64,000 bases of DNA from assembly GCA_001972305.1 (NCBI GenBank), contig BDDD01006352.1, positions 27,338 to 91,337 of the forward strand, in the 5' to 3' direction. Origin of the DNA: Cephalotus follicularis (taxonomy: Eukaryota > Streptophyta > Magnoliopsida > Oxalidales > Cephalotaceae). Below are positions 6,512 through 63,511 of this stretch, piece by piece. Each line of letters opens with the position of its first letter. The first letter of the stretch is position 1. The translations under genes were made by a program, and so were the position numbers. The notes beneath the pieces are model-generated. The model was not told the DNA's origin and made no database searches. It saw nothing but the letters and a program-made list of their open reading frames with translations.

Positions 6512-6579
<68 letters not shown>

Positions 6580-9484: not shown

Positions 9485-12400
9485 TGTAACACCCTTAGTT
9501 CGGGATCGGGATGTCACCCCCGATTCGGGATCGGTGTGTCACGCAAAACGTAACTAACTATAGAATCATATTAGAAGATCATAACCTATCCTTCACTTAA
9601 GTCATCAAAACCATAAATCCGTAACGTTACGAAACCTTAAGTAGTAATCGAATTTGAGACTAAACTTCTGTCTCAAAATCCTCTGGAGGGTCAAAATATC
9701 TTAATCTTTATTCAAATCATCAATACGTGGTGGTTCTAAAATTTGAACTACATATATAAACCTTAACAAAATTTCAAAATGTTGTCATAACACTGGTCAA
9801 CATATGATCATAAAACAACTATTATTCAGTTGACATAATCAAACTCCTAAGTGTTTAAATAAACTAAAACTCCAAGTTTCATAACCATAACATTACTAAA
9901 AGAAACAAAATCCAAAAATGTCCTCGAGCCAATGGTGTTTCTCTCATCACACTTGCCCCAGATGCTCCCGAATACCTGTCACATGGAAAACAAAAACGTG
10001 GCTGAGCAAACCTCAGTACGGATATAGAATCATAAAACAGTTTGCGAACAAAACAGTTTATGAAACAAACCAGTTGTGAAACAAAACAGAACAGTTTACA
10101 AAACAAAACAGTTACAAATCAAAACAGTACGAAACAGAACAGTTACGAAACAAAACGGTTTATGAAACAGAACATAACACTTAACGAAACAAAACAGTAC
10201 GAATTTTTATGAAAACAGAACAATTCATTATAAACTAAATTTATGCAATTCAAATTATGCTCATGTCAAACAAATTTTCAGAAAACATAAATACGTATCC
10301 GTTCATATCCGATTTCAAACTTTTTCCAAACCAATGTTTTATACTGAGATATGCAATAATGATTTAAATACATATATATATATATATATGTTAGGGGTTT
10401 GCAAAGCCCACATGATCCGACGGAGCGACGTGTACGGCATTGCACAATCAATTCCCAGAATCTGAATCCGATAACAAATTTCCTAGGGTTGACCCATACG
10501 CCTTTATTCTGAAGTGGGATCCAAATCCTATTCACAGGATATCAAAAACATAGAGAGAGGCCGTAGACTAATCACACCACTACGGATAGTGTCATGTCCC
10601 CATGCGAGGCCTACGACATGCCTATGGTACCCCCATAGGCGGTTCATATATATTCTCAGTATTTCAAAAATAATGACTTTGTCAAAAATCATTTCAAAAA
10701 ACATACATATATTAACATACTTTCGAAATTGAAAGTCATACTCATTTAAAATATCAACATACTTTCGAAATTGAAAGTCATGCTCATTTAAAAAATATTA
10801 ACATACTCTCGAAATTGAAAGTCATGCTTAAAAATATCAACATACTTTCGAAATTGAAAGTCATGCTCATTTAAAACAATTCAAACAAAAAACGGTTTTT
10901 CCAAACATTTTCCGAGCATATCCGAAATCATTATCATATCCGAATTATAGAATGTCAGTATACTTTCATAATTGAAAATCATACTGGTTTAATTCTATAA
11001 TAATAAAATATGCATTTTATTCATCAAAACTAAATTAATAAAATCAAAAATATTCAATGTAATAAAACTGAATTTATTCAATTAAAACCGAAAGAGATAT
11101 CCAAGAACGAAAAATCCATACTAAAAGCAAAATAGAATTCATTTCAATAAAAACCGATTGAAAAGTCCAAGAACGAAGAACAATTTCGTACTGAAAGCAA
11201 AACTGATTTCATTTAAACAAAACCGAAGAAGAAGTCCAAAAACGAAGAATAATTCCGTACGTTATTCATTAAAAACATAGATGTGATTTCTTTCAGAAAA
11301 ATAAGGAATAAAAGCCATACTTTATTCACTAAAAGTAAAACCAAATTTATTTCAATAAAACCGATGGAAAAATCCAAGAAGGAAAAATCCGTACTCTTGT
11401 TCATAAAAGCATAAATAGGATTTATTACAATAAAAACAAAGGGAGTTTATCAAGGAAAGAATAATCTGTACAATATCCATTTAAATAAAACTGAATTTAT
11501 TTCAATAAAAATCGAATGTCCAATAAGAGAATTATCCGTACCTTAGCCACTCGAATCTAAACAATCCCAAAACGAATCAAAACCACACTACTGAATGACC
11601 TTAACTTCCACCATAGGTTTGATCGAAACCTAGACAGATCAATCCAACCATATCACATCACCAAAAGACAGACACATAAAAGACGACACACACAAACTGT
11701 AGAGGAAATAAGCATCGACATTTACGCTTAAAGCGCCAAAGTTTACAATGAAAGCGTCAACGCCTTAAGAACAAAACGTTGATAAAACATGACTATGAAA
11801 GCGTCGACACCCAAAGAAAAGCGTCAACGGTTAAGCCCTAAACTTCAACAAAAATGAAATACAGACGACGCTTAGCAACATGCAAGACGCAAAAATAGTT
11901 GCAAAAATTCAGTTTTTTCTTAAACATAAATCCAGAAAACAGCAACATCCAAGCTCTAGAACATGTTTACTATGATTGCAACACCAGTAAAACAGTTGAA
12001 ACACCTCAATCATGAATTTACAGGTTACGCATGGAAACGAAAACCTTTGAAAACATGGTTTCTCAAACATGAGTTATAAACACTAGTATACCAGTAACAA
12101 GACATGGGTTATCTGATTGAAAACATCAACAAAACAATTTAAATGCATGTACATATGGATTTGCAAGTGTTTTAACAATATACTCATTAAAATATGGTTT
12201 CTAACATTTCATGATTTAAAACAGATTTTCATGGATCAACAGCCAAGTTTTAAGAAATATAAACTTAGTATATAAGATTAAAACAAAACTATTTTCGAAG
12301 CCATACCTTCCAATGATGTAGAAGCATTAGGGAGATCAATTGCAAAAAGAATGGCTATTTCTGGTTTTTTTTTTCAAAAATGCAATGATCAGTTTTAAAA

Positions 12401-12831
12401 ACAATGAAAACATGTAAGACTAATGGCAAAATTGTGTGACTTTAAGACCTTCCTTTCATGCAAATGCGTCCAAACACAGATGGAAAATCGGATAAACAAA
12501 AATGGCAAGAATCCTCATTTTCAAAAACAAGCCACCATCCAAAACAAATAAGGAAGGCGACTAAAGCGTCGACGGTAACGCCAAAGCATCGGCGCTTAAG
12601 TCCTTTTTGTGTAAAAGCGTCGATGTCAATTGCATAGGCGTCAACGTCTTACACTTCAAAAGAATAATGAAATTACAACTCTAAAGCATCGATGGTCAAA
12701 TCCATGGCGTCGACGCTTAACGCCCTGGGCAAAAAATATATTTTCAAAAACAATTTCAAATGGGCCAAAAAAATATACATAACATATGACATATAACGAT
12801 AGGCATAAATGCAAAGAAACGGGATATTACA
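9485..12831 (-). mobile_element. TE-C2: solo LTR inserted in TE-A
   Basis: A 3.35-kb LTR in minus orientation. The plus strand starts TGTAACACCC and ends GGGATATTACA. The flanking 5 bp are TCACT and TCATT, a nearly perfect target duplication. TE-A pol sequence continues on both sides. It is related to TE-C: it shares the CCCGAATCGGG-rich end, the block around the GGTACC-ATAGG site (near 10380-10640), and the CTCAGCC-GTTTTTGTTTTCCATG stretch. No internal region is present, so LTR-LTR recombination removed it. Confidence 0.85.
11700..12725. repeat. GCGTCGACGCTT-type motif cluster in TE-C2
   Basis: More than ten degenerate copies of GCGTCGACGC(TTAA), with variants GCATCGAC, GCGTCAAC and GCGTCGAT, are scattered at intervals of 20 to 60 bp in two groups (about 11700-11880 and 12550-12725). 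Confidence 0.7.
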
Positions 12832-12867
12832 TCATTGCCTTCTTTGTCAAATTTGACAGAGGAGCAG
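12832..12867 (-). mobile_element. TE-A pol sliver between two solo LTRs
   Basis: These 36 bases encode A-P-L-S-N-L-T-K-K-A-M on the minus strand, the linker between RT and RNase H. They show that TE-C2 and TE-D inserted independently only 36 bp apart. Confidence 0.85.
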
Positions 12868-13009
12868 TGTAACGCCCGGGATTTTCGTTAAGGTGTAATA
12901 TTGCATTTTTCATGTAATTTTACACGTTGAATTAATGAGAATTGTGTTTTCCCCTTTGGTGTGGTTAAAGCTGCAAGAAAAAGTGTGTTAGTGTGCTTTT
13001 GGTGCAGGG

Positions 13010-14110
13010 GGCAGCCGACTGCCACAGGGAGGTAGCCGACTGGACTCCCCTGGTGAAAGTGGCAGCCAGCTGCGGTGAGGAAGCAGCCGGCTGTTTTGAG
13101 TGTCAGCAGAAACAGTCGACTGCCAAGCCATGGCAGCCGACTTCCATGCGTCAGACAGCCACGTGCTGTCAGCCTTTAAGTGGTGAAAAGTGGGTGTTTT
13201 GGCATTTGTGGACATATGGCAGAGAGAGGGGTCGGGTCTCCTTGATAAAAACACAACTTCCTCTCCTCAATCTCCATCTCCTCTGTGATTCAAGTGTGTT
13301 TGAAGGTGAGTTTGAGAGTGAAAGTGTGTGTGTGTGTGTTCTGGACATAAGGAGTTGTGTTGAACCGTGAGCTTGGAGGCCGGACCAGTGGAGGAGCCGG
13401 ACCCGTGGAAGGCTGCTGGACGCGTTTGGAGGTGCAAGGACCTCGGATCTAGGACTTAAAGAGGTGGATTGTAACTCCTAAGTTGGAGTTCTAAGGTAGG
13501 GGAAAGCTATATTTGTAATTCAAAGTCATTTATAATGATGTTATGAGTGAAATGCATATGTGATATTGTGATAAAAGCCTGGATATGTATTGTGGTGATA
13601 GTGATTGTGGCTTTGAATGGTTTAATGCGGATCGAAGTGTGTGTTTTGTTGCTGTTTTTGGGCACTGCCCGTAGGGGCAGTCGACTGTCCAGGGAGGACA
13701 ACCGAATGGGCATTGGAGCCAGTCGACTGTTTGTGCCTGGAATTGCAGGTTTCTCCCTATTGTTTGTGTAGCCAACTGCCAAGGAAGGCAGCCAACTGTG
13801 TGGTGGTGCAGCCGACTGTTTTGGGTAACAGCCGACTGTCCACGTGTCACCCTACCAGGCCTGCTGGGGCAGGTGGCAGCAAGGAATGTGTATTGTATTG
13901 AACCAGCCGACTGCCTGGAGAGGGCAGCCGACTGCTAAGGGAGGGACAGCCGACTTCCAAGGAGGGCAGCCGACTGTTGGCATGGGACAGCCGACTGCCA
14001 AGGAGGGCAGTCAACTGGTGGTTAAGGGCAGCCGACTACCAAGTGTGGGACAGCCGACTGTTGAAGGAGAACAACCGACTGTCAATGAGAAACAGCTGAC
14101 TGTTTGAGAT
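13010..14110. repeat. CAGCCGACTG / CAGTCGACTG motif array in TE-D
   Basis: About 25 degenerate copies of CAGYCGACTG occur in two blocks (13010-13165 and 13675-14105), about 20-30 bp apart in the second block. By eye about twelve contain exact GCCGAC. The spacers are G-rich (GGCA, AAGGAGGG). The block can be read as a Gln-Pro-Thr-rich open frame, but no coding role is supported. Confidence 0.85.
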
Positions 14111-14279
14111 CGTTTTGCATTGTGAGCATATGTGTGCATATTGTACTGTGTTAGACTGTATTTCGAGTTGGTAATTGATGATTGTGAAACGTTTTACCCC
14201 TTTTGGGAAGTGCAAATGTGATTTACATGAATCAGTACTTTATGTGAAATGTATGTTTTGAGATATATATATATATTCT

Positions 14280-14513
14280 CAAAAGGATTGTGAAAATGTG
14301 TTTGGTTAATGGTTTGTTGAAATCATTAGTTGTTTGGAAAATGGTTTTCAAAAGGATTGTGAAAATGTGTTTGGTTAATGGTTTATTGAAATCATTAGTT
14401 GTTTGGAAAATGGTTTCCAAAAGGATTGTGAAAATGTGTTTGGTTAATGGTTTATTAAAATCATTAGTTGTTTTGAAAATGGTTTCCAAAAGGATTGCGA
14501 AAATGGCTTTCAA
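14280..14513 (+). repeat. 69-bp tandem repeat in TE-D
   Basis: Just over three copies of a 69-bp unit starting AAAAGGATTGTGAAAATGTG. The period is a multiple of three, so an open frame runs through it by construction. The split of the reversed TE-D copy elsewhere in the window falls in this same repeat. Confidence 0.9.
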
Positions 14514-15893
14514 GAGATTGCGAAACTAATATACAAATATGTATTTTTGAGGTATTTGAATGTAGTTCAAATAACCGGGTTTTACTAAAGTGTATTGTTA
14601 CAAGTATTTTGATACTTGAGTTTGGGAAAATGATCGTTATATATATTTTGACAAATATATATGTTGCAAGTATTTATATCTATAAATTACTTGAAATGTT
14701 TAAAGAGAAATGTATTGTTGCAAGTATTTTATGAATCATAACTTACTTGGGAAATGAAGTGTTATATATATGTTTTGACAAATATATATATGTCGGAAGT
14801 ATTTATACTTTAAACGTTTTGGAAACGGATTGCAATGTTTTGAACGAGATATTTTGATCAAGTATTTATTTTATAAACTACTTGAGTGGTATTGTGGGTG
14901 CTGTGTTTGCACCGTTATTGTGATTGTGTTGAGTGTTGGTACTTAGACGTCGTGCTAGTATCGTTATCGTGTACCGACTGATTGATTGTTGTTACTTAGC
15001 CATCGTGCTAGTAACGTGGATGTTATTGTATTGATTGTGATTGAGTGTTGCCGCTAGCGGGGTAATGTTGGTACTTAGCCGCCGTGCTAGTATCGTGAGT
15101 GTTGCCGTTAGCGGGGAAGTGTTGGTACTCGCCGCCGTGCTTGTATCGTAGTGAGTTTCGAGTGTTGTCCACGCCATCGTGCCTGTGACGGGAACAATTG
15201 TTTGCATTGAGTGTATTGATTGTTTGCCTTGACTTTCCTGATTGAGTATAGTGTTGTCCTTTGGGATGTGGCTGATCGTGATTGTGTAGTGATGGGTCCT
15301 TAGAGACCTGAGGTATTATCGGCTGTCGTGCCATAGAGATATTGTGAGTGTTGATGTGTCGTGACATTGTGGCCTGTGACCGTGTGGTCGTGGTATATAT
15401 ATATATGCATCGAGATATAGCGTGTACTGCATCATTGTGCATTCATGTCATGACATGTTTTATCCTTGACCCTGGATCGCTTTTATGGTTTTGCCGAGTG
15501 AGGACAAAGGCTAACCCCCTACAACTTCAGTGTGTTTCAGGTTGATGCAGCCGTTGGTTGCTGTTGGGCTCCGAGGAGCAATGTGAAGCTTTATGTTGTT
15601 TACTTTTGAGGAAATGTTTATGGAATATTGTAATAATGAATGGTTGTAATAAATGAATCGAGGTATTGATGGATTTTGTTCACGGTCCGTTTGAGGGCAG
15701 TTATCTGTGATGATGTTTTCTGTTGTAGCATGTAGTATGGAATGCATGCTATGTTATGTTTCGGCTTATTTTATGTGCTTCCGCAGGTTGTTAATGGATA
15801 TGGAAAGTTTTAATTTTATGGTATTTTTCATAAGCCGGATTTATATGTTAATTGCCACCACTTTATATGTTGTTTGTGAAACGGGGTGTGACA

Positions 15894-16567
15894 AGAGGCT
15901 ATCGAGGAAAACCCTTCGATAAACCTCCTCTAGTAGCCAGCCAGACCAAGGAAACTGTGAACCTCAGACACTTTCCTCGGTCGTTCCCAAGCCAAAACAG
16001 ACTCCACCTTCCTCGGATCAACTTCTATCCCCTGGCCCGAGATGACATGGCCCAAAAAGCCTACCTTGTCCAACCAAAACTCACACTTGCTGAGCTTGGC
16101 ATACAACCTATGGTCCCTCAACGTCTGCAGCACAATCCTCAAGTGCTCTCCATGCTCGGTCACATCCCGAGAATACACCATAACGTCATCTATGAACACC
16201 ACCACAAAGGTGTCAAGGTAAGGCTGGAACACTTGATTCATCAACTCCATGAAAACTGTTGGCGCGTTGGTCAGACCAAACAGCATGACTGAGAACTCAA
16301 AATGACCATAACGGGATCTAAAAGCTGTCTTGGGAATATCCAGCTCCCTTATCCTCAACTGGTGATAACCCGAGCAAAGGTCAATCTTCGAAAACACACT
16401 GGCATCCTTCAACTAGTCAAACTAGTCATCAATCCAAGGCAATGGATATTTTTTTCTCACAGTGACCTTGTTGAGCTATCTATAATTAATGCACAACTGT
16501 AAGGCACTGTCCTTCTTCTTCACAAACAACACTGGAGCACCCCAAAGGGAACTACTGGGACTAACGA
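15894..16567 (-). mobile_element. TE-A reverse transcriptase segment (broken)
   Basis: The minus strand encodes the RT fingers and palm: [21 protein letters not shown] and the catalytic F-I-D-D-V-M-V-Y-S box, then F-L-G-H-V-I and F-L-G-L-A-G-Y. It is bounded by TE-D and TE-E. Confidence 0.9.
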
Positions 16568-19346
16568 TGTAACACCCCCCGAACGGCGAGAGTCGTTACG
16601 GTTCCTAATCCAAGACTAAACATAACCTATCATGAAACATGGCTCAATTTTATTCTTTTTATCAAAATATTAACTCATCTTTTATTCAATTTGCGTGATG
16701 GTCATAACATAACATTTATAATCTAAGACATAGTCTGAAAACTTTATTCATAAACTGAAAAACTTAAACATAAACCAAAACTTAAAAATAATCCAAAGTA
16801 ATAAACTGAAAGGCATAATATTATTCAAATAGGGGTCCTAACATGACCATAAAATAACTAAGCATAAACGGTTCCATCTCCTAAGTGATCCTTATCATAG
16901 GTGACATCTCGCTCATCACACATTGCCCGGATGCTGTCCCAGAATCCTGTCGCATGGAAATAAAAACGCGGCTGAGCAAACCTCAGTACGAATATAGAAT
17001 CATAAAACATTAAACGATAATTTAAAAGATAGAAAATACCTGAACCTTTAAATATCATATACCTTATACATAAAATAATTTAACATTATTTTCAAAAGCG
17101 AAGGTAAGTAGTCATACAATCAATTCAAAACGAATATCTAATTTTCAAAGCGTTATTCAATTTCAAAACATAATCCAAGTTCAAAATCCCAAAATATATT
17201 CAAAACAAAAAACAAACAGAGACTTATCTGATTCCATAATCTCATCTCAGAGATCCAAAGCGCATACACACATGCGCAATTGCAAGGGGTTTGCAAGGCC
17301 CACATGCCAAACGGAAGGACGTGTACGGCACTACACAATAAATCCCCAGAATTCATATCATATCACATATCATATAACTAGAGTCGACCCATACGCCTCT
17401 ATCACACATATCGGATCCATAAGTCCACCTCATGGGACTTATTCATAACATAGAGAGACGCCGTAGTCAAATCACACTGCTACGAAAGTTTCATGTCCCC
17501 GTTCTAGGCCTACGTCATGCCTATGGTACCTCCATAGGTAGGAAATATCTCTGTGTATATCCTTATTTCAAAAACGTTGCTTTATTTCTAAAAACAATTT
17601 AAAAATGTAAACACATTTCTAAACATTTTATGGACATAGCAAAGTTATTACATAGCATCAACTCATTTATTTTCCACTGTAAAGAGATGATCGTATCATA
17701 TTTATTAACATGTCATAGCATAAAGTCAAGAACATTAAATTCGCAAAATGTCAACTGACTTTTATTTTCAAAATCGTACGAATCATAAAACATAGCCAAG
17801 TTCATAAAACAGAAGGAATCACATTTGAATTCATTTCAGTAAAACCGTAGGAAGAGACCAAGAACGAAGAATCGGTACGTTATCCATAAAGTAAAACTAT
17901 CTTTTATTTACTACAGTAAAACTGATAAGAGGGTATCAAGGAACGAAAATCCGTACCTTAAGCGACCACAACAAGATAGACAAATTGATCAAAAATTTTA
18001 AAAGTCCCTCGAAGCACAACAATCTAAAAGATACAATATCATTCATATAAGGATTCAAAAATCACTTCCAAACATCAAACAACAATTTAACAGTGTCTAA
18101 AACATATCCCAAATCATTAGAAAACCAAACGGATAACAAAACTTGAAACCAGAAAATTTACTAGACAAAACCAGCCGACTGTATCAAAATCCAGTCGACT
18201 GTATCACATAGCCAGCCGACTACACAAACAAAGCTGCAGCCAATCAACTGTGACAGGGGTCCAGTCGACTGTACAAAGCAAAATAGCTGACTGTTTTACA
18301 AGGCAGTCGACTACTCAAAGCGAAACAGCCGACTGTTTAAATGGACAGCCGACTGTTCTGCTCGACAGAACAGCAAAACACAGCAGTTTCAATGTAATTT
18401 TTCTGTCAAAACTCCAATATTACAATACCAGATGATCATAGCCATATACATAGGACTTATGCGATATATCCACTTCATTTAAACCCAAAGAATCATGCAA
18501 GGGTGATCTTACTTTAAGGAGAAGCAAAACTATTGATCAATTTCTATCATATACCAATTGCTAGTTTCAAAATCTGTTTATAACCATTACTAGTCACCTC
18601 AGGACTTGCTCACAATCTTAGAATTAATAACAGAACATACATAGCAGGAATCAAAACTAAAACTCACTAGCAGCCTATATACAAACGATTTTGATATCAT
18701 TAAAACCAAAGTTCAATGCTAATCCTTAACAGTAGAGGATATCAAACCTGATTCAATGAAGCAAAGAAGAACAAAACAGGCTCCTAATCCTTGCAAGTTT
18801 GGCTACCAGACTCAAGAAAACAATGATGGCATATAACAATGGCAATAGGCATACATACCAGAAAATATAATAGGCAAAATCGGCTGGATATGGAAAGAAG
18901 AAATCACAATCTTATTGGATAAGGAAATAGGGCAGAGATTTAGTAGAGATAGGGAGAAAGAGAGAAAGAAACGTGATGAGAAGAGAAGAGGAAAAGGGAC
19001 ATACGGGTGAGGGAGAGAAGAAGTAGAAAACAATTAGGATTTAAAATAGTAAAAGGGATTTATTTCCCAAAATACTCTAATTTACCATAATACATTAATT
19101 CATTTCCAATTTAAAACACTTTTGCCATATTAATAATTTAAAAACTGATTTTAAAATACAAAACAATTAATTTTTATTTTTCCCATGATCCTTATTCCAT
19201 TAATTTATCGAAAGCCCAAAGATGGTATTAGTTAGCCTAAAACATAAAAGCCCAAAAATTATAAAATAGCCCAAAATAATATAACACACCAACATAAAAT
19301 CAAACAAAAATCCGAAAATATGCATATGAACAAACGGGTTATTACA
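16568..19346 (-). mobile_element. TE-E: solo LTR inserted in TE-A
   Basis: A 2.78-kb LTR in minus orientation. The plus strand starts TGTAACACCCCCC and ends GGGTTATTACA. The flanks AACGA and ATCGA match at four of five positions. It shares with TE-C and TE-C2 the block around 17280-17550 and the CTCAGCCGCGTTTTTATTTCCATGC-like stretch near 16960 (minus strand), so it is a sister family. A pyrimidine-rich tract (minus strand, about 18950-19020) lies roughly 330 bp from its 5' end. Confidence 0.85.
18165..18372. repeat. CAGYCGACTG motif cluster in TE-E
   Basis: About ten copies of the motif seen in TE-D occur here, including exact CAGCCGACTG and CAGTCGACTG, spaced 15-30 bp. Confidence 0.8.
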
Positions 19347-31221: not shown

Positions 31222-33865
31222 TGTAATGCCCGGATATATATACATATATATAATATTATATGTATACGTAAATATATATAAAAGGGGGCCAATAGGCACA
31301 TAACACAAGTGTGTTATGCGCTGGGCGCTTTTAACTTGCGCCAAAGAGAGAAGACACGAGAGAGACACGGGAGAGAGGGAACCAGAGAGCAGTAGATAGA
31401 GAGAGAGACGTCGGAGAGATGATGACGTCGACGAGGGAACGACGCAGGTCCTCCACTGCCAACGGTAAGCTTCTTCCTTCTCCTCTCTTTTCTTTTCTTT
31501 CCTCTATCGGCCAACGACTTGCCACTGTCGTGCATTCCGCTGCCAGAAACTGTCACGGGTAGAGCGGGTTTTGGTCGTGATGACTAGCTCTTCCCCTTTT
31601 TGTGGCTGTTGAGGCATTGTTCGACTGAAATCGGTCAAAATGTGAAGGCTGAGTCAACCCAGCGAGTTTAACTCACTTCCTGCTGTGACCGCCGATTCCT
31701 TGGTGAGTCTCGGCAGGAGATGTGTAGAACGGGTCTTGTGGAGGTTTGTTTCTGAGGTGGCCGGAATTATGGATGACTGGCGAGTTGACTGAGTGAGTCA
31801 AACTCACTCTCGACTGTGACTGTGCGATTCATGGCGAGTCACGACTACCAGTGCATAGATTGGCCAATTTAGAGCCTATTTATGGCGTGGTCGGAGTTTC
31901 AATGTGTTGGCTGGGAGATGGCCGGAACTCCAGTGACGAAAATGTGTATTTGCTACATGTGTGTAAGTCGTTACGGAATGTGTGATGGTTATTGCAGTGA
32001 TACAAGGAGAGAAAGAGAACTCTGTTGACACATGATGGAGCTGTGCTCGTAACGATGAGTGAAGCTTAGAGGAGGTAGCAATTCGTGGATTCTGCTGCAA
32101 GCCCTCCCAACTCACAAGCTATATTGGTAACAGGTAGGTATACATATGTTCCAATGGTACGTGCTCCAAATGAATATAGACTTGATCCCATTCGTATACG
32201 CTATTATGGGACGGTTGTATACGAATGGTAGATCTCTAGAGTATGGTTACACTATTTTACTTGCATTCATGCTTTTGAACGTATTGTATGGACTGATATG
32301 TTGTGCATTGATGATTGTATTGTTATGATTATGCATGATTGTTGATTACATGACTTATTATACTGTATACGGGTATAATGGACTGAATGGAGTATTGAGA
32401 AGAGTGCATCTTCTACTCTATCTCAATTCGAGGGTTATGGAAATGGATCTTATAGTTTTAAAACTGGTTTTGAGTTTCAACCTATGTTTGGAGATTTTAT
32501 CTTCTTTTGAACCGAAGTGTCAACTGGTTTATAAATGGTTTCTTTTACATGGACTTGAAATTGTTTTGATCTGGTTTTCTAACTGTTTGATGAACCGCTT
32601 ATATGGCCAAATCGTTGACGCCTAGTATAGAGGAGTCGACGCTTTGGAATGAGTAGTCGACGCTTTATGTTTTACAATGGTGTATGCGTTGACGCTTAAG
32701 GCAAATTGCCTTAACCGTCGATGCCTAGTGCAAAGAGTAGACGCTTAAGGTATAACACCTTAACTGTCGACTCCTAGCATATATGCGTCGACGCTTAGTG
32801 CACTGTTTAGCCCAAACACACTGTTTTACATGGTTTTCAATCCAAAATGGTTTTATCTACAAAAGGATTTCATAAGAAGCTTCCCTAAGGCTTTGTAGCC
32901 TATGGAAATCCTCTTTTAATACTTTTAATCTCCAAACCGGTTTTCAAATAGATATCGAAAAGGTTTTCGAATAGATATTGAACTGGTTCTCGAATGGATA
33001 TTGAAATGGTTCTCAAATGGATATCGAAATAGTTTTCGATGGTTTTCGAAATGGTTTCCAATGGATGGTTAGGATGGCTCGATTGGGATGTTTGGACACG
33101 GATATCCTAGTTCGACTTCTTCTCCATTGTTTTTAAACTCCGATAGGGACCAATGAATGGAAAACGGTTTATGGCTATGGAAATGGTTTATGGAAATGGC
33201 AAATGGTTTATGGAAAATGGTTATGGTTATGGAAAAGGTTATAAAGGGTTTTGACGGATGTGGATCCTATGTGATCCTTTATGGTAGGTCCCTATCTTTT
33301 AAATGGAAGATGGTTATGGGTACGGTTATGGTTATGGATATTATTGTTTGAGACCTATGAAATAACCCATTCATAATCTTCGTTTCTGTCGCGAGGATTA
33401 CGGGTGTCAGATCACATCATCACTAGAGGGTATGGCGACTATGGGTTATGACCGTTTTTACGGCATAACATTATTCTATGGGTTATGTTCGTTCTTACAG
33501 CTTAAAAATTATACTTATGGGTTATGTCCATTTTTACGACTTAACATTATTCTATGGGCTATGACCGTTTTTACGGCTTAGCAATGATGTGACCAGCGTT
33601 ATCACTTCCCCACTCTGGTACAACCCCAAAAGGGTAGGTAGTCGATGGGAGTACTATCTCGGGCCGGAGAGGTAGAGAAGTACTTGACCTTATGGATTGT
33701 TTGACGCATGGTATGGTTATGGATTGTTATGGATTATCTGTAGGCCTATGGCCTTTGATGTGATTAGGACTAGCTAAGTATACCCCCTCTTAGGGACGGT
33801 TGGTATATTGATGCTGTCCGCAATTATCATTCATATACATGACATTAAATGGCATATAGGTATAT

Positions 33866-38419: not shown

Positions 38420-39943
38420 CCAAACACATTTTCACAATCCTTTTGGAAACCATTTTCGAAACACTAATGATTTTAATAAACCATTCACATTTTCACAAGG
38501 TTTTGGAAGCCATTTTTACAATCCTTGAGAATACGTATATATCTCAAAACATACATTTCACACAAAGTAATGATTTATATAAATCACATTTGCACTTCCA
38601 AAAAGGGGTAAAACGTTTCACAATCATCAATAACCAACTCGAAACACAGTCTAACACAGTACAATATGCATATATATGCTCACAATGCAAAACGGTCCCA
38701 ACCAGTCAGCTGTTTCTCACTGACAGTCGGCTGTTCTCCTTCAACAGTCGGTTGTCCCACACTTGGCAGTCTGCTGCCCTTTACCAACAGTCGGCTGTCC
38801 CATGCCAACAGTCGGCTGCCCTCCTTGGTAGTCGGCTGTCCCTCTCTTAGCAGTCGACTACCCTCTCCAGGCAGTTGGCTGGTCCAAAACAATACACATT
38901 CCTTGTTGCCACCTGTCCCAGCAGGCCTGGTAGGGTGACACGTGGACAGTCGGCTGTACCCAAAACAGTCGGCTGTACCACCACATAGTCGGTTGCCTTC
39001 CTTGGCAGTCGGCTACACAATCAACTGGAAGAAACCTGCAATTCCAGGCACAATCAGTCAACTGGCTCCAATGCCCAGTCGGCTGTTCTCCTTGGACAGT
39101 CGACTGCTAGCCTTGGACAGTCGGCTGTCCTCCCTGGACAGTCGACTGCCCCTACGGGCAGTGCCCAAAAACAGCAGCAAAACACACACTTAAATCCACA
39201 TTTAAACCATTCCAAACCACAATCACTATCACCACAACACATATTCATGCTTCTATCACAATATCACATATGCATTTCACTCATAACATCATTATAAATG
39301 ACTTTGAATCACAAATATAGCTTTCCCCTACCTTAGAACTCCAAGTTAGGAGTTGCAATCCACCTCTTTAAGTCCTAGATCCGAGGTCCTTGCACCTCCA
39401 AACGCGTCCAGTAGCCTTCCACGGGTTCGGTTCCTCCACTGGTCCGATCTCCAAGCTAACGGTTCAACACCAATCTCCGTATGTCCACAACACACACACA
39501 CACACTTTCACTCTCAAACTCACCTCCAAACACACTTGAATCACATAGGAAGATGGAGATTGAGGAGAGGAAGTTGTGTTTTTATCAAGGAGACCCGGCC
39601 CCTCCCTCTGCCTTATGTCCACAAATGCCAAAACACCCACTTTTCACCACTTCAAGGCTGACAGCACGTGGCTGTCTGGCGCATGGCAGTCGAATGTTTC
39701 TGCCGACACTACCACCAGCTGGCTGCCTCCTCACAGCAGCTGGCTGCCACCTTCACCAGGGGAGTCCAGTCAGCTGCCTCCATATGGCAGTCGGCTGCCC
39801 CCTGTACCAAAAACACACTAACACACTTTTTCTTGCAACTTTTACCACACCAAAGGGGAAAACACAATTCTCATTAATTCCACGTATAAAATTACATTAA
39901 AAAAATGCAATATTACACCGTAATGAAAATCCCGGGCGTTACA
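38420..39943 (-). mobile_element. Reversed TE-D LTR, LTR-start half
   Basis: It runs from within the 69-bp tandem repeat of TE-D to the LTR start (GGGCGTTACA on the plus strand) and includes CAGTCGGCTG arrays (38700-39150 and 39680-39800). Its other half is at 49796-51238. Confidence 0.85.
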
Positions 39944-44603: not shown

Positions 44604-46170
44604 ACAACCCTATTTACAAAAATCCAAAAAAAATCTAACTTTATATTTCTGCTGCAGAAGAAGACATAGACGCTTTTGCTTGAAGACATCGACGCATTTT
44701 GGAGGTTGACATATGATATGAATGGATGGTTTGAACGGAAGATATCTCACGCGTCGAGTCGTGGGGGTTTACCCTCACGGTTCGGGGCGTGACAGACAAA
44801 GTGTGAGTGAAGGCAGAGAAATTGAAGAACAAATCATATATTCAAGGATTTTTATTGATGGAATTTAAACGATAATGATCTAGGCTTTGTTCTTCCCTAA
44901 AACCTTGAAGAGTTTAGCTACTAAACATTGTAAAACAAACTAGAATTGATAAAGACGAAAATTGGGTTTCTACCAGCCTCTCCTTGATTTTGCCTGGCCT
45001 TTTTGTATTTATACATGTAAGATTGATTCAAAACAGAAATAACACAACCCTATTTACAAAAATCCAAAAGAAATCTAACTTTATATTTCTGCTGCAGAAG
45101 AAGACGTCGACGCTTTTGTTTGAAGACATCGACGCGTTTTGGTCCCAAAATCTACAGGTCGAATTTGCCCAAAGACATCGATGCGTTTAGCGAAAGACAT
45201 CGATGTCTTTCTTATAGCATTTGAAGGTAAGCTGCAATCTTAGAAAGGACATCGATCCGTACCAAAAGACGTCGATGTGTTTACTATAAACCTTGAAAAG
45301 ACATCGACCCTTATGAAAGACATCAACGCTTTTCACTCTGTTTCTGTAGAATTTGTCAATTCTTCTCTCTTTACTCTTTCAAACTCCAATTTGCACAACT
45401 TTTTGTAATATTCATGCATTCTGGCTCTTTTGCTTTTGTACCTGAAAATCAATATAACACAACCAAAGTAGTCTATTCCAAACATAAAAATACCACAAAT
45501 ATACCATTAAAAATAACATATTTTTATGCTAAACAAATACCCCCACACTTAAACGTTGCTTGTCCTCAAGCAAACCAAATAGAAAGCTAAAACAAGAAAA
45601 CACACACAAACACCAAAAATAAAAACTGAAAACACAAACAAGAACATAAACAAAAACCTAACTCACTTTCGTAGGAATCACGATTGCATTTAGCTTATGC
45701 AACAGGCCGTTAAACCCCTAGGTCGCCCTAGTGGACGAGTTTTGTCTCGTGAGTGTTTTCCAAACGAATAAACACACAAAATTCAGTTCATCAAAACTTT
45801 CAAAACAAGCAAAATGTATCTATACTCAAAAGTTCATAGAACACCCCCGTACTTGAATTTTATTATCTCGTTCCAAGTTCTAGAATCAAAACACATCTCA
45901 ATTAAAGAGGTTTTAGCAAATTATTTTATTAGTCCACCATTAATGACCAATCAAGTTATGCATTCGTAGCAACACAAAACCCCATTTCAGAGTTAGACAA
46001 AAGAACTTTAGCATTCACATATATACATATATATTTTTTTCTTTCTTTTTGCTGTCTTTTCATTGAACATATTCTTCCACTCTTTTCCATATAAAATGTC
46101 ATGGATGGAGAAAACACCAGACACTCAAAGTACTAAGTAGCTTCAGATTTAGCAATTCGCACATAATAAT
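44604..46170 (-). mobile_element. TE-F continuation with a duplicated TE-B LTR end
   Basis: 44604-44699 continues TE-F. 44700-44793 is the last 94 bases of a TE-B LTR ending GGGGCGTGACA. From 44794 TE-F restarts at the same base as at 37728 and runs to 46170. Minus-strand reading near 45540-45600 gives CTTGAGGACAAGCAACG-TTTAAGTGTGGGGG, a phrase known from the region near the 3' end of Tat/Athila-type gypsy elements. A GACGTCGACGC cluster lies at 45105-45335. Confidence 0.55.
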
Positions 46171-51238: not shown

Positions 51239-51906
51239 AATTTCGTAAAGTGTTTTGTTTCGTAAAATGTTTTGTATCGTATCGTGTTTGTTTCAGATAC
51301 TGTATTGAGCATGATATTGTTTTGTTTCGGATACTATTTCGTTTTGGTAAACTGTTTTATTTCGGATACAGTTTTGTTTCGTTCTATTATGATTCGTAAC
51401 TGATCTGTTATGATTCGTAAATGTTCTGTTTTGTTTCATAACCTTTCTGTTTTGATTCGTATTTATGTTATTTCGTAATTTGATTTGTTTCATAAACTGT
51501 TCGTAAACTGTTTTATGATTCTATATCCGTACTGAGGTTAGCTCAGCCGCGTTTTTGTTTTCCATGCGGCAGGTTTTCAGGGACAGCATGGGCAAGTGTG
51601 ATGAGAGAGTTACCCTATGTCAGAGGATCATCTAGGAGTTTGATCTGGTTATGTTTTTAGCAGTGTTATGCTCGTGTATAGGCCAGTAATCTGAACAGTA
51701 TTGTGATTTTTGATTTATGACAAAGTTTTCAGATTATATTTTAGATTCAGTTTATGTTTCATGATTATACATGTTTTCAGACTTTTAGAACCACCGCGTA
51801 TTGATGATGATCAAGATTAAGATCTTTGATATGTTTTAGTTCAGTTTTGTGTGACACACCGATCTCGAATCGGGAGTGATCCCGGTTCCAAATCGGGGGT
51901 GTTACA

Positions 51907-56700: not shown

Positions 56701-57315
56701 AGCATGATATTGTTTTGTTTCGGATACTGTTTCGTTTTGGTAAACTGTTTTATTTCGGATACAGTTTTGTTTCGTTCTGTTACGATTCGTAACTGATCTG
56801 TTATGATTCATAACTGTTATGTTTTGTTTCGTAACCTTTCTGTTTTGATTCGTATCTGTTTTGATTCGTATTTATGTTATTTCATAATTTGATTTGTTTC
56901 ATAAACTGTTTGTAAACTGTTTTATGATTCTATATCCGTACTGAGGTTTGCTCAGCCTCGTTTTTGTTTTCCATGCGGTAGGTTTTCAGGGACAGCATGG
57001 GCAAGTGTGATGAGAGAGTTACCCTATGCCAGAGGATCATCTAGGAGTTTGATATGGTTATGTTTTTAGCAGTGTTATGCTCGTGTATAGGCCAGTAATC
57101 TGAACAGTATTATAATTTTTGATTTATGACAAAGTTTTCAGATTATGTTTTAGATTCAGTTTATGTTTCATGATTATACATGTTTTCAGACTTTTAGAAC
57201 CACCACGTATTGATGATGATCAAGATTAAGATCTTTGATATGTTTTAGTTCAGTTTTGTGTGACACACCGATCCCGAATCGGGAGTGATCCCGGTTCTGA
57301 ATCGGGGGTGTTACA
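53752..57315 (+). repeat. TE-C 3' LTR, the most complete copy
   Basis: 3564 bp, starting TGTAATATCCCG and ending CGGGGGTGTTACA. Modules: TCTC-rich tract at about +250, GC-rich block (54060-54600), TACGG...TTCTTGG units (about 55000-55680), conserved block around the GGGGTACCATAGG site (56025-56260), TTATGGAACCTA repeats (56280-56400), TTCGTAA-rich repeats (56620-56900), CTCAGCC-TTTTTGTTTTCCATGC stretch (56945), and the palindromic CCCGAATCGGG end. Confidence 0.9.
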
Positions 57316-57409: not shown

Positions 57410-57430
57410 GTTTATGGTATCAGAGAATAG
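57410..57430 (+). other. TE-G primer-binding site (initiator tRNA-Met type)
   Basis: GTTTATGGTATCAGAGAATA follows the LTR end directly. The same arrangement is seen in TE-C at 48030 and 51907. Confidence 0.9.
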
Positions 57431-57579: not shown

Positions 57580-58720
57580 ATGGTACGCACAAGAAACACT
57601 CCTCAGAGAACTGCACCAGCTAGGGCTCGAAATGAAGTCAGAAACGAGCCTTCTGTGGAAGAGTTGGTTCGACAAGCGGTTGCTCAGGAAGTGAATCGTG
57701 TTATGCAACAACAGAATTTGGAACAAGTTGTTGAAGAGAATGCTCCGGCAGAGGTTCAGGCGGGTATGGAAACTGGGGATAGGCATGGCAAACCTACTCA
57801 TGTTTGGCTTGAGCGATTTCAGAAACAGAGGCCGCAGTCTTTCAGTTCGGCTGTGACTCCTATGGAAGCTTAACACTGGGTAGCACACATGGAGAAGATA
57901 TTTAATGTTCTGAGGTGTGATGATCAGCAGAAGATAAGGTTAGCGGCTTACAAACTAGAAGAGGATGCTCAGAAATGGTGGAACACTCTGAATTCGGCTA
58001 AGGGTGAAGGTTATGCAGATGCTCTATTGTGGTCTGACTTCCGGGATGTCTTCTATCTGCAGTATTTCCCCGCTGCTGATAAGGAGGCCTATGCTAGAGA
58101 GTTCGTCAACACCAGGCAGAAAGACGGAGAAACGGTTTCGGAGTTCTTGGCCCGTTTCACCAGATTGGCTGGGTTTGCTGGATCCGCGGTTGGGTCAGCA
58201 TCAGAGCAAGCTGAAAAATTCAAGTGGAAGCTGCATTACCAGTTTAGGGGAAATCTAATAAACTCCAGGTTCGTGGATGTAGCTGAAGTTACAGATGCAG
58301 TGAAAAACATTGAGCTGGAGAGATTGGACTTCCAGGCAGCACGTCAGGAAGGGGATAAGAAGCGGTATAGGAGTGAACAAGATTCTGGACAGCAGAACAA
58401 GGGTCATGGCAGTTCATGGAACAGGGGCAGAGGAGGTAAGCAGCATAAGGAGAATCACAAGCAGAACAAAGATGGTAATCAACAACGTCAGCAAGGAAAT
58501 GATCAAAAGAATGCACACGGAGCTGATGGGGGTAACCCCGACGTTCAGATTGCTAGATGTGATGCTTGTGGTAGGTATCATCCAGTGGGTACCTGTTATA
58601 AAGTCAGTGGGGCCTGTTTTGTGTGTGGACAGATGGGACACTTTGCGAAGGATTATCAGGATCCTCGTGCTAAGGAAAGGAAGGGTAATAATGGTGCGAA
58701 TGCTGGACAACGCAACGTGG
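57580..58720 (+). mobile_element. TE-G gag region (broken)
   Basis: It starts M-V-R-T-R-N-T-P-Q-R, followed by a helical capsid-like region with [24 protein letters not shown] and F-T-R-L, as in Retrotrans_gag. A basic Gln/Asn/Lys-rich stretch (about 58330-58530) and a nucleocapsid zinc-knuckle region (about 58555-58670) follow. Confidence 0.9.
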
Positions 58721-59330
58721 GAGGCCGAGTCTTTGCAATCACGACTCATCAGGCAGCTAATGCTCCAGGTACGGTTTCGGGTTTTATTTCTGTTGGTAAC
58801 CGTAGAGCTTATGTGTTATATGATACTGGATCGAGGCACTCGGTTGTAGAGAGATCTTTTGTTCAGCATCTTGGAATGCCTTCGCAGTTGTTTGATCCTG
58901 CTTTGGTTCTTTCTACCCCTATGAGGACATCTGTTGTGATATCTGAGTGTTTTTATGGTTGTCCTATTGTTTTTGATGATCGGATTCGTGACGCGAATCT
59001 TTTTCCTATGGATATGAATGATTTCGATGTGATTCTGGGAATGGATTGGTTGGATCGCCATCAGGCTATGATTGATTGTCATGCTCGGAGGATTCTGTTC
59101 GGGGAAGTGGATCGACCTGATTTTGTTTATCAGGGTACGCAGCTTATGAAAGATGTCAAGATCATATCAGTTATGAAAGCTCAGAAGTTAGTAGCTAAGG
59201 GCGCCGAAGGGTTTCTGGCTATTATGAAGGATATCTCAAAGGTCGAGCCTCGCCTTGAAGATTATCCTGTGGTTAGGGAGTTTTCTGATGTGTTTCCGGA
59301 GGAGTTACCGGGTTTGCCACCGCAACGGGA
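58721..59330 (+). mobile_element. TE-G protease region
   Basis: Retropepsin-type aspartic protease: the active site L-Y-D-T-G-S lies near 58820 and the flap and I-L-G-M-D-W-L region near 59030-59050. It would cut the gag-pol polyprotein. Confidence 0.9.
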
Positions 59331-60110
59331 AGTGGAGTTTACCATTGAGCTCATTCCTGGGGCGGCACCTATATCTAAGGCACCGTATAGGATGGCACCG
59401 CTTGAGTTGCAAGATCTGAAAGAACAGTTGCAAGAGTTGTTAGATCGGGGTTTTATCCGGCCAAGTGTTTCGCCGTGGGGAGCTCCGGTTTTGTTTGTGA
59501 AGAAGAAGGATGGATCTATGGAACTGTGTATTGACTACATAGAACTGAATTGGATCACTGTTCGTAATAAATACCCTTTGCCTAGGATTGATGACCTGTT
59601 TGATCAACTCCAAGGTGCACGGTATTTTTCTAAGATCGATTTGAGGTCTGGATATCATCAGTTGCGGATAAAAGATGAAGATGTACCTAAGACCGCTTTC
59701 CGTACGCGGTATGGGCATTATGAATTTCTGGTGATGCCGTTTGGGCTTACGAATGCACCGGCAGTTTTCATGGACCTAATGAATCGGGGTTTTCATGAGT
59801 TTTTGGATCGGTTTGTGATTGTGTTCATCGATGATATTCTTGTGTATTCGAAATTGAAGGAAGAACATGAAGATCAACTTCGTATAGTGCTTGGTATTCT
59901 GAGGAAGAATCAGCTATACGCAAAGTTCTCGGAATGTGAGTTCTGGTTGGAACAGGTGGCATTTTTGGGCCATGTGATTACAGCGGAAGGGATTACTGTG
60001 GATCCTGCTAAGGTTGAAGCTATTACTAAATGGCCGAGACCTACTACGGTATCGGAAGTTAGGAGCTTTTTGGGTTTGGCTGGTTACTATAGGAGGTTCG
60101 TGGAAGGCTT
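59331..60110 (+). mobile_element. TE-G reverse transcriptase region
   Basis: It contains [46 protein letters not shown] and the catalytic F-I-D-D-I-L-V-Y-S box (about 59825), then F-L-G-H-V-I and [11 protein letters not shown]. Confidence 0.95.
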
Positions 60111-60815
60111 CTCCTCCATAGCCTTGCCACTGACTCAGCTTATGAGGAAGGGATCGAAGTTTGTGTGGAATGATGAACAGGAAGCAAGCTTCGAGAAACT
60201 GAAGAACGGTCTTGTGTCTGCACCGATTCTCCGTTTGCCATCTAGGTCGGGAGGATACCATATTTATAGTGATGCTTCTAAAAAGGGTTTGAGTTGTGTT
60301 CTGATGCAGCATGGTCATGTGATAGCATATGCTTCGAGACAGTTGAAGCCTTACGAGTTGAATTACCCTACACATGATCTCGAGTTGGCGGCAGTTGTGT
60401 TGGCATTAAAGATTTGGAGGCACTACTTGTATGGAGAAACTTGTGACATCTTTACTGATCACAAGAGTCTCAAGTACATCTTCACGCAAAAGGAGTTGAA
60501 TATGCGTCAGAGACGTTGGTTAGAGCTTTTGAAGGATTACGATTTGAATATTCAGTACCACCCTGGTAAAGCAAACGTGGTAGCCGATGCTCTGAGTAGG
60601 AAGAGTTCTTGGAGTGTGGCGGCTCTTGTTACTCAGTCACATTTGATAGCAGATATGGAGCGATTTGATTTGAATCTGTTTGTGCGAGGTTCAGATGGAT
60701 ATATGGCTGGCATGTGTATGGAGCCTACCCTTATATCTCGAATTAAGGCAGCTCAGGGTGATGACGGTGAGCTTTGGGCCTTGGTTCAGAATGTTGAGAA
60801 GGGTAAACAGTCTTA
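60111..60815 (+). mobile_element. TE-G RNase H region
   Basis: Gypsy-type RNase [10 protein letters not shown] (about 60265), [25 protein letters not shown] and A-D-A-L-S-R-K-S (about 60585). Confidence 0.95.
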
Positions 60816-62157
60816 GTTCTGTATGGATGAGCATGGAGTGATCTGGTTGGGTAGTCGGTTATGTGTTCCAGCAGATACTTCTATCAGAGATGCTGTCTTG
60901 TCTGAAGCGCATAGCTCTCCGTTCTCTATTCATCCGGGTTCTACCAAAATGTACAGAGACTTAAAGGAAAATTTCTGGTGGAGCGGAATGAAGAGGGATG
61001 TAGTAGAGTTTGTTGGGAAGTGTTTGGTCTGTCAGCAGGTCAAGATCGAACACCAACGTGCTAGTGGTTTGTTACAGCCCTTGGAAGTTCCGGTATGGAA
61101 ATGGGAGAGTATTGCGATGGATTTTGTTACAGGCTTGCCGAGAACTTACAGGAGAAACGATGCTATTTGGGTTGTTGTGGATCGGTTGACCAAATCAGCT
61201 CACTTCTTGGCAATCCGAGAGGATTTTTCTGTGGACCACTTGGCGGAAGTTTTCCAGTGGGAGATTATGAGACTTCATGGGACTCCTGTATCCATTGTTT
61301 CGGATAGGGATCCTCGTTTCACTTCACGGTTTTGGAAGGGATTTCAGAAAGCTTGGGGTACTAGGCTAAATTTCAGCACAGCTTTCCATCCACAGACAGA
61401 TGGGCAGACCGAGAGGACCATGCAGACCTTAGAAGATATGTTGAGGTCTTGTGCTTTGGAGTGGACTGGAAGCTGGGATGAGTATTTGAGTCTAGTGGAG
61501 TTTGCCTACAATAATAGTTGGCATGCTAGTATTCGTATGGCTCCATTTGAAGCTCTTTATGGGAGGAAATGTTGAGCTCCGACATGCTGAGATGAAGTCA
61601 GAGAAAGAGTTATTGAGGGGCCAGAGTTAGTACGAATCACTACTGAGAAGGTGGCTATAGCAAGGGAGAGGTTGAAGACAGCTCAATCTCGACAGAAAAG
61701 TTATGCAAACAAACATCGAAAGGATTTGGAGTTCAAGGTGGGTGAACATGTGTTCTTAAAAGTTTCACCTTGGAAAGGCATCCGACGATTTGGACTGAAG
61801 GGAAAGTTGAGTCCTCGGTTTACAGGACCGTTTGAGGTTCTGGAGAGGGTTGGCGCAGTTGCGTATCGGTTAGCTTTGCCTCCACAGTTAGCACATGTTC
61901 ATAATGTGTTCCATGTGTCCTTATTGAGGGGTTATCAGTATCACCCCCTACACGTGGTCCACTATCCTCTAGACAACATTTGGGAGGATTTATCTTATGA
62001 TGAGTAGGCGGAGGCTATTCTGGATCGACAGGAACGGGTTACGCGTGGCAAGACCGTTTCGTTTGTGAAGGTGTTATGGAGGAAACATCCCAAACGTGAG
62101 GCTACTTGGGAGATGGAGGAGCACATTCGGGAACGATACCCTCGTTTGTTCGTTTAA
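60816..62157 (+). mobile_element. TE-G integrase with chromodomain-like tail (broken)
   Basis: An H-H-C-C zinc-binding region (about 60905-61050; H-P-G-S-T-K-M and C-L-V-C-Q-Q-V-K) is followed by the DDE core (M-D-F-V-T-G-L near 61120, S-D-R-D-P-R-F near 61300, Q-T-E-R-T-M-Q-T-L-E near 61405), the GPF/Y region ([10 protein letters not shown] near 61830), H-V-H-N-V-F-H-V-S, and a C-terminal V-K-V-L-W-R-K-H and A-T-W-E-M-E-E (about 62065-62120), which is chromodomain-like. Confidence 0.9.
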
Positions 62158-62189
62158 GGTATGTGTATGTTAAGATTTCGGGACGAAAT

Positions 62190-62210
62190 CTTCTTTTTAG
62201 GGGGGGTGGA
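62190..62210 (+). other. TE-G polypurine tract
   Basis: TTTTTAGGGGGGTGGA before the LTR start TGTAATACCC. The upstream phrase TTTCGGGACGAAATC is shared with TE-C. Confidence 0.85.
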
Positions 62211-63511
62211 TGTAATACCCTGCTTGCCTGTACGTATTTTTCTTACGGGTTTTATTTGTTTTCATTTAAGTAATTGTATGTTTTTCGTTGCGTTTATGTT
62301 TTGGGCTGACTGATACCAGCCTTAGTTTTGGGCTTGTTTGTATGGACTTTGTTCTTGGGTAAATTAGTCATATTATTATTATTATATATATTCCACAAAT
62401 CAAATATTTTAAAAACCTTTTTAAAATACCACCTTTTATTTTATTCTTTTCCTTTTCTTTCTTTTCCTTTTTCTTTTATTTCCTCTCAAACTCCCTCTCT
62501 CTCTCACGACATCTCTCTCCCGAATTCTCTCTTTCCCTCATAACTTTCACACGGCAACAATCTTCTCCTTCCTTATCAACATGATTTTGTCTCAATTGTT
62601 TCCTTATCCTTCCCTCAATCCCCTCTTCTTTCCCGTTTTGGTTTATTTTGCTATAAATGTATGTCAAGCCATTGTGTCAGCCATCTCTTTTCCTTGTGGT
62701 TGCTGTCAAGCCTGTCATTGTGAGTGTGCTGCGTTTCTGTGTCTCTGGTTTCAACAATAAGGTTTGTCTCTCCATGGATTAATTGTAGGAATCATGCTTA
62801 CATTGTTTTGTATGGTGGGCAGGCTTTGAGTTCATTTTTTTCTTTCCTTTTCTTTCGTTTTGAGCAGCTACTGTGACTTCTGATTTGGTGTTTCTCCAAC
62901 TGGTTTTGCCATAATCAGGTTGGTTTTCATGTTGTTATGTCATGGTGATTGGCTTTATATTGCTGTCTATTGAATTTGAATGTTATAGGTTGCTAGAGAA
63001 GAAATTGTCCTACATTATGCCTTCTTGCTTTCCTGTCAAATAAGTTCTGTGTTTATAGCAATCTGTAGACACCTAGGAAGTGTCATATAATTTGGTATTA
63101 GGAATTGACAATGGTAATTTGACAGAAAATTTAATTGAAATTAGCATCCCATGGTTTGCTTCTCTTACTCACAACTCAATAATCGCTGTAAATGTACTTA
63201 ATTCAAATTCAGTATTATGTTGCTATTTTTAATACCCTATGGAGTCCTTGTAAGTGTTGGTAGCTTCCTGGTATTGAATGAATTGAGTATGGGCAGCAAG
63301 ATTTCACCAAACTGTCATATTTCTGTTTTCTGTCGCCTAGAACAGTAGACTGTCCATATGAACAGTCGACTGTCTAGTTTGAGTAGTCGACTGCATTGTG
63401 CAAATAGTCGACTGTCTTGTGTTGAGTAGTCGGCTGGACCCCTGATTCAGTCGACTGCTTGCATGTCCAGGTTGAGTAGTCGACTGGCCCTGTTGTGTAG
63501 TCGACTGCCAC
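62211..63511 (+). repeat. TE-G 3' LTR, interrupted by TE-H
   Basis: It starts TGTAATACCCTGC. It contains a TCTC-rich tract at about +260 (62480-62540) and a CAGTCGACTG cluster (63340-63511). TE-H begins inside that cluster and the rest of the LTR is beyond the window. Confidence 0.8.
63340..63511. repeat. CAGTCGACTG motif cluster in the TE-G LTR
   Basis: Eight copies of RGTCGACTG or AGTCGGCTG are spaced about 18-30 bp, nearly all with an intact GTCGAC core. Confidence 0.85.

Follow-up and report, generated by a model that had tools for sequence, protein, structure and literature searches.

The closest described counterparts of the sequences reported here are the palindromic repeated motifs (RMs) in the long terminal repeats (LTRs) of Sireviruses, which are Ty1/copia retrotransposons. 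In the available excerpts of the study describing them, RMs occur in at least eight copies per element, vary in sequence by element and, in Vitis, take the form CGGTCGACCG, which has a GTCGAC core (PMC2829016). The same excerpts leave RM function untested, call RMs absent from classic retrotransposons, and describe the regulatory boxes of plant LTRs as arrays of two or three (PMC2829016). Here we describe arrays of GTCGAC-centred sites in LTRs of Ty3/gypsy elements of Cephalotus follicularis, which were found in a 64,000-nucleotide stretch of contig BDDD01006352.1 (assembly GCA_001972305.1, positions 27,338 to 91,337; hereafter the window, in whose own numbering coordinates are given) and then sought in the whole genome assembly.

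The present arrays share with RMs a many-copy palindrome in the upper half of the LTR. A first-pass annotation of the window, which knew of no described system of this kind, thus overlooked a match in place, symmetry and copy number. The arrays differ from RMs in their hosts, which are Ty3/gypsy and not Ty1/copia elements, and in their flanks, which are CAG..CTG or RCG..CGY without the CGG-CCG signature. They also keep a 21-bp register and fall into two exclusive classes, both of which occur on related element bodies, and in these respects they differ from RMs as presented in the excerpts (PMC2829016). Where plant LTR boxes come in twos or threes, up to about 20 sites per LTR are found here, with a genome-wide register.

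Dense, same-orientation arrays in non-coding DNA, tandem growth and subfamily-specific motifs are likewise reported for the targets of VANC proteins in the available parts of two studies (PMC5735166, PMC10398659). VANDALs are DNA transposons that encode their own binding protein, whereas no such gene was recognised in the element pieces read here. VANC motifs (YAGTATTAY; AGTTGTCC/AGTTGTAC) are unlike the present sites and, in those parts, are not described as palindromes (PMC5735166, PMC10398659). We found no report of such arrays in Ty3/gypsy elements in the open-licence literature searched; what is new here is the Ty3/gypsy hosts, the 21-bp register, and the two exclusive and apparently exchangeable classes. 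On balance, we favour the reading that the arrays are cis-regulatory rows of dimer sites that act on LTR transcription and are probably read by host factors.

Two classes of site and their spacing

Both classes of site are centred on the GTCGAC core, class M being CAGYCGACTG and class R being RCGTCGACGY. In the genome searched (1,577,397,061 bases in 9,746 contigs), M has 285,949 forward and 286,197 reverse matches, compared with 1,745 and 1,680 for the flank-swapped control CTGYCGACAG. R, whose pattern covers four words, has 167,609 matches, compared with 50 for the one-word control CGGTCGACCG, in which the core is identical and the number of CpGs equal. Hybrids with one M and one R flank (CAGTCGACGY) number 7,083 + 7,231 genome-wide; they are rare, so that the two flanks of a site agree, as would be expected for a site bound by a dimer. 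Core and flanks both matter for the enrichment. The arrays noticed at first in several LTR types are real, and more extensive than had been noted.

The window contains 31 copies of GTCGAC, 29 of which lie inside the eleven LTR regions tested and two elsewhere. Sites in the window were counted at one mismatch or fewer and compared with 60 Markov resamplings per region. The array-bearing LTR regions of the window hold 4-20 sites, whereas in the resampled regions the mean never exceeded 0.15 and the maximum never exceeded 2, an enrichment over resampled sequence that bears out the first-pass annotation. The array-bearing LTRs of the window are as follows.

12868..15894, plus strand: LTR of family E, copy E1 (starts TGTAACGCCC), class M, 20 M sites and no R site; delimited by its end pattern and by alignment with 38420-39943 (86%) and with L014
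13012..13143, plus strand: M array, E1 cluster 1, 5 sites
13678..14102, plus strand: M array, E1 cluster 2, 15 sites
38400-39943, minus strand: region of LTR copy E2 (LTR start at 39943), 20 M sites and no R site
38703..39148, minus strand: M array, E2 cluster 2, 17 sites
39687..39797, minus strand: M array, E2 cluster 1, 3 sites
16568..19346, minus strand: LTR of lineage G, class M, 7 M sites and no R site
18172..18355, minus strand: M array of the preceding G LTR, 7 sites, sense strand CAGTCGGCTG
62211..63511, plus strand: start of the 3' LTR of a 57-63-kb element (lineage G), 8 M sites and no R site; placed by a polypurine tract at 62202 and by TGTAATACCC, and interrupted by a further LTR from 63512 onwards
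63343..63507, plus strand: M array in the preceding LTR, 8 sites
9485..12831, minus strand: LTR W, class R, 6 R sites and no M site, its 3' part related to lineage G
12566..12716, no strand assigned: R array of LTR W, 4 sites, with more R sites at 11754 and 11801
34000-36499, minus strand: region of LTR F (LTR start at 36499), 13 R sites and one lone M site
35185..35398, minus strand: R array, F cluster 2, 8 sites
36176..36324, minus strand: R array, F cluster 1, 5 sites
32633..32794, no strand assigned: R array of 3 sites in the LTR at 31222-33868 (4 R sites in all, no M site), with a further R site at 31425
44686..45278, no strand assigned: four scattered R sites (44686, 45104, 45126, 45269) in region 44600-45300, no M site

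An LTR copy at 26829-29476, 90% identical to that at 31222-33868, retains one R site; this region and those at 39944-42885 and 46170-49795 have none or one site of each class.

Three samples (L numbers) were taken beyond the window. Eighteen stretches were drawn at one position each on spread contigs, ignoring the motif, four of which contain runs of N. Forty short stretches, all from one contig, were fetched around M or R sites. Finally, 20 3' LTRs were picked by a polypurine-tract pattern that ignores the motif and excludes lineage G; these are 20 of the first 23 among 5,715 + 5,735 listed places. The arrays in L023 and L026 are counted irrespective of their LTR context.

The two classes hardly mix. 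All 24 arrays with at least three sites in the window and the 18 stretches are pure, 11 being M (six in the window, five in the stretches) and 13 being R (four and nine), and orientation is uniform within each array. At one mismatch or fewer, 37 of the 40 stretches fetched around sites hold a single class, while L028, L054 and L055 each hold one site of the opposite class. Arrays were found in 16 of the 20 polypurine-picked LTRs (6 M, 10 R) and neither class in the other four, by labels that we assigned from site counts. The least clear labels are L085 (R: one site at one mismatch or fewer, five at two or fewer), L078 (two and five) and the R LTR L072, which has six R sites and one M site.

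Spacing is equally regular. Pairs of GTCGAC exactly 21 bp apart occur 105,145 times genome-wide, compared with 582 at 26 bp. When the arrays of the window and of the 18 stretches are taken together, 82 of 127 distances between neighbours are 19-22 bp, with minor groups at 27-30, 42 and 48-53 bp, which replaces the loose range of 15-40 bp first proposed. When pairs 10-35 bp apart are considered, the 19-22-bp spacing holds for 63 of the 68 M pairs and for 20 of the 23 R pairs, and M distances peak close to multiples of 21, out to about 126 bp. The register persists even where spacers are unlike. Across 55 distinct M pairs from one contig, the median dissimilarity of spacers equals that of random letters; 3.2% of comparisons reach 80% identity or more (null 0.02%), because some arrays are related. 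Dimer sites about 21-22 bp apart that are bound side by side are known from plasmid iterons and the EBNA1 dyad element, which belong to replication or maintenance systems of unrelated genomes and serve here as an analogy only. We set aside a coding reading, in which 21 bp would represent seven codons: one-base jitter (20, 21, 22) breaks the frame, and three open frames across arrays have no Pfam match.

Core conservation and array growth

To compare the divergence of cores and spacers we used hand-chosen pairs that share sequences, and counted a position as core if either sequence had a site there. In the 11 pairs that compare M families, differences fall on 220 of 2,083 core positions (10.6%), on 498 of 2,002 spacer positions (24.9%) and on 1,495 of 7,946 positions elsewhere in the LTR start (18.8%); for transversions the values are 3.1%, 11.7% and 10.5%. 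An earlier set of M pairs gives a like contrast. In close M copies (four pairs), the corresponding differences are 8.2%, 9.9% and 8.8%. A core advantage between families, with little in close copies, is the pattern to be expected from selection on active lineages combined with unconstrained decay of dead copies. Equal conservation of spacers and cores, which the first-pass annotation had named as a refutation, is seen within families and, when all substitutions are counted, in class R, and is not seen between M families.

Recurrent amplification, which the first-pass annotation had also suggested, does play a part. Identity between adjacent M spacers is 46% (n=18) compared with a null of 28%, units of 15-46 bp are often repeated in tandem in these LTRs, and tandem growth contributes to the arrays. 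These same figures would suit a wholly passive origin, in which slippage or unequal exchange, either in the chromosome or while the element is reverse transcribed, would multiply a functionless unit of about 21 bp. We consider that origin improbable as a full account, since between M families the spacers turn over while the cores stay, since only two flank types of one core have been amplified, each more than 100-fold over its flank control, and since the register is kept when spacers are unlike.

The conservation of M cores also bears on the suggestion that the arrays are recognition sites by which the host silences the elements. Palindromic LTR regions of maize Sireviruses are reportedly linked to small-RNA targeting. 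A purely harmful site should vanish, yet M cores outlast spacers between lineages, and we give host silencing very little credence.

Host elements and position in the LTR

Open pieces beside arrays match Retrotrans_gag, RVP_2, RVT_1, RT_RNaseH, Integrase_H2C2 and SH3_Tf2-1 in Pfam, which is the Ty3/gypsy order. These pieces span both M elements (window 57.9-62.0 kb, L014, L017 and L022) and R elements (L013 and L016). A chromodomain (PF00385) adjoins SH3_Tf2-1 in L013 at 23.9 bits, below the cut-off of 25.1. By these matches, the array hosts read are Ty3/gypsy elements and probably chromoviruses of Tekay/Del type. In L013 and in the window element, about 45-55 bp separate the end of the final pol frame from the LTR. 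The internal features of the window element are as follows.

57415..57426, plus strand: primer-binding site of the 57-63-kb element, by pattern match with one mismatch; it fits initiator tRNA-Met
57874..62004, plus strand: gag-pol open pieces by Pfam (gag, protease, reverse transcriptase, RNase H, integrase, SH3_Tf2-1), with the stops between them left unmended

The element group is very abundant: a 175-aa integrase C-terminal stretch gave 57,384 first-look candidates in the genome, of which 150 were scored. In L022, the gag-protease stretch is doubled in tandem (6005-7675 and 7983-9653) with copies that are 100% identical, so that the duplication is either very recent or an assembly artefact.

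No extra gene beyond gag-pol was recognised in the element pieces read, most internal regions having been seen in part. Nine other open frames in the window have no Pfam match; five are antisense in the 57-62-kb element and four lie in LTRs, three of these across arrays. Together these results argue against a reader encoded by the same element. They also bear on a VANC-like alternative, in which a transposon-encoded anti-silencing protein would act in trans, the two classes would be two co-evolved protein-target pairs, and the gain would be lost silencing and not activation in the classical sense. In the available part of its description, VANC21 has dense, same-orientation, tandem-duplicated target arrays with C or T types by subfamily (PMC5735166), and the arrays described here are also single-orientation, tandem-grown and divided into two classes. 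Fast-evolving proteins can escape Pfam, and most internal regions were seen in part, which leaves room for such a gene; with none recognised in the elements read, another element would have to supply the protein. We regard a VANC-like system as unlikely, though as a serious alternative and the least improbable one to cis-regulatory sites read by host factors.

As for regulatory sites in general, the BII boxes of Tnt1 are repeated LTR boxes that act as transcription signals. The present arrays occupy the upstream part of LTRs of about 2.3-3.3 kb. In E, F, W, L013, L016, L017 and L018 they start about 115-205 bp into the LTR, and in G about 1.0-1.2 kb into it. Sirevirus RMs are followed by a conserved TATA box. 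A TATA-like box is present downstream of the arrays in E1 and E3, about 500 bp before the LTR end, and none is common to the three G copies compared. Of 25 array LTRs, which are partly related, 14 have CACGTG at 190-310 bp (15 within the first 450 bp), with 5.0 expected in all 32.5 kb. It begins 16-17 bp after an M site in E1 and E3 and 17 bp after an R site in F and L016, while in L013 the end of the closest site lies 37 bp upstream of it. The 25 array-bearing LTR starts are also rich in CATGCA (40, with 8.4 expected), GCATGC (19, 6.7) and ACGCGT (13, 2.5), which are possible further regulatory boxes.

The position of the arrays is relevant to a role at the RNA level, as hairpins, dimerisation or packaging signals, or small-RNA precursors in 21-nt phase. 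The sites are self-complementary. In two G arrays the sense strand folds better than its shuffled versions do (z -4.4 and -3.7), and so does one F cluster (z -7.9). Another F stretch reaches only z -1.8, and three E stretches fold like shuffles (z -1.3, +0.1 and -1.4), while the one antisense stretch tested does better (-4.8). The E arrays lie upstream of the TATA-like box and may therefore be transcribed only near the 3' end. Moreover, the sense strand of family E has the non-pairing CAGCCGACTG (C-A form), for which reason a reading by RNA wobble pairing was also set aside. An RNA signal strikes us as a distant prospect.

Change of class between related elements

The LTRs had been described as otherwise unalignable, which does not hold for all of them. 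E1 and E2 are 86% alike; E (M) has its LTR start in common with F, L013 and L016 (R), at about 77% over 76-86 bp compared with E1; and G (M) and W (R) have 3' parts in common. L017 (M) and L018 (R) are 75% identical in an alignment of 1,173 bp that spans the end of pol and the beginning of the LTR. Simple shared descent of the arrays was rejected, as E and F share the LTR start, the inter-cluster block and CACGTG, yet differ in class. The independent growth in several families that was originally proposed is thus borne out in part only, given that many LTRs are related and that array segments seem to be replaced when class changes.

In a tree of pol ends, the best topology requires five changes between M and R (21 of 26 rows, the five without arrays being omitted); 12 of its 23 inner branches have support below 80, and its starred branches force only two changes for M or for R. 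One clade, with 100/100 support, groups two M elements with three R elements. Among its members, L082 (M) and L068 (R) share 90% identity until 67 bp into the LTR, do not align over the first array, and are 62-71% identical in pieces beyond it. The M pair L017/L082, in contrast, stays 92% alike through the first array. Judging from these alignments, elements with related bodies appear to change class by having the array segment replaced, and not base by base.

Proposed mechanism

In the mechanism that we propose, a sequence-specific DNA-binding protein would bind, as a dimer, to each two-fold symmetrical, GTCGAC-centred site of about 10 bp. These dimers would mostly sit 21 bp, or two helical turns, apart, which would let neighbours touch. 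There would be at least two reader specificities, one for M (CAG..CTG flanks) and one for R (RCG..CGY flanks), with each LTR using one of them and related elements changing class by replacing the array segment. The reader would most likely be supplied in trans by the host, and its binding would most likely raise LTR transcription or hold the LTR open against silencing. Protein binding, the dimer, the host origin of the protein and the activating effect are all points that we infer; what the sequences show directly is the enrichment, the register, the agreement of flanks, the separation of classes, the retention of M cores between families, differing classes on close element bodies and no recognisable extra gene in the pieces read.

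As a candidate reader we considered DREB/CBF, since CAGCCGACTG contains GCCGAC, the DREB/CBF core, and since GTCGAC is reportedly recognised by a cereal CBF; we do not claim this candidate. It is also possible, though less likely than not, that the retrotransposon population has split into two regulatory cliques, M and R, each with its own dimeric reader. Elements would then move between cliques by swapping array modules, and the array would serve as an exchangeable address code moulded by an arms race over whose LTRs are activated or protected, and by whom.

Several observations weigh against cis-regulatory dimer sites. Spacings of 27-30 and 48-53 bp fall outside a two-turn register, and neighbour pairs at 31-32 bp, or three turns, are absent among the array spacings of the window and the 18 stretches; we therefore reject helical phase as the whole rule. 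Of the 51 exact M sites that the window and the 18 stretches provide, 35 depart from symmetry at one base, being CAGCCGACTG or its complement, and the other 16 are CAGTCGACTG. Two of the 11 M between-family pairs (L080/L081 and L017/L082) run opposite to the core advantage. R cores (13 pairs) differ at 19.5% of positions compared with 20.8% for spacers when all substitutions are counted, and a modest advantage appears in transversions (8.2% compared with 12.2%). The R core holds three CpGs, which decay fast when methylated; we offer this as an explanation for R core divergence and not as a test. Finally, the three G copies compared have no common TATA-like box.

These observations set bounds on two earlier suggestions. 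Palindromic flanks in two alternative versions were confirmed, though exact M sites often lack perfect symmetry; around R sites, flank symmetry reaches further out (AAAR..YTTT). Selected binding sites for a dimeric protein are supported in class M by the rarity of hybrids, the retention of cores between families and the register, and in class R by transversions only.

Other features of the window

At 12831-12868, the LTR starts of W (minus strand) and E1 (plus strand) stand head to head, 36 bp apart. Another LTR (TGTAATACCC...) starts at 63512, five bases past the last site of the M array at 63343-63507, and is a nested insertion at the array edge.

A different 21-bp tandem repeat around GTTATGATTCGTAAC, roughly symmetrical and without GTCGAC, occurs at 44094-44177, 47506-47584, 51381-51461 and 56774-56860; these repeats, in other LTR stretches, are possibly another array type of similar kind. 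A 78-bp tandem repeat with inverted GCGGTCGGCAATT lies at 5033-5329, with a 16-bp repeat of GCGGTCGGCAATT nearby, and resembles the subterminal repeats of CACTA transposons. A search of viral contigs for two copies of CAGTCGACTG 19-23 bp apart returned no stretches.

Conclusion

We describe two classes of GTCGAC-centred site that form register-spaced arrays in LTRs of Ty3/gypsy elements in C. follicularis. If the arrays are indeed cis-regulatory dimer sites, this genome would offer one or two DNA-binding proteins over 450,000 exact matches to two related sites, a very large target carried by highly abundant elements. With the sites, their spacing, two alternative specificities and natural swaps all defined, the reader protein can be sought. 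The same reading would extend the idea of the Sirevirus motif to Ty3/gypsy elements, and would suggest that palindromic LTR arrays are a strategy that different retrotransposons have reached repeatedly.

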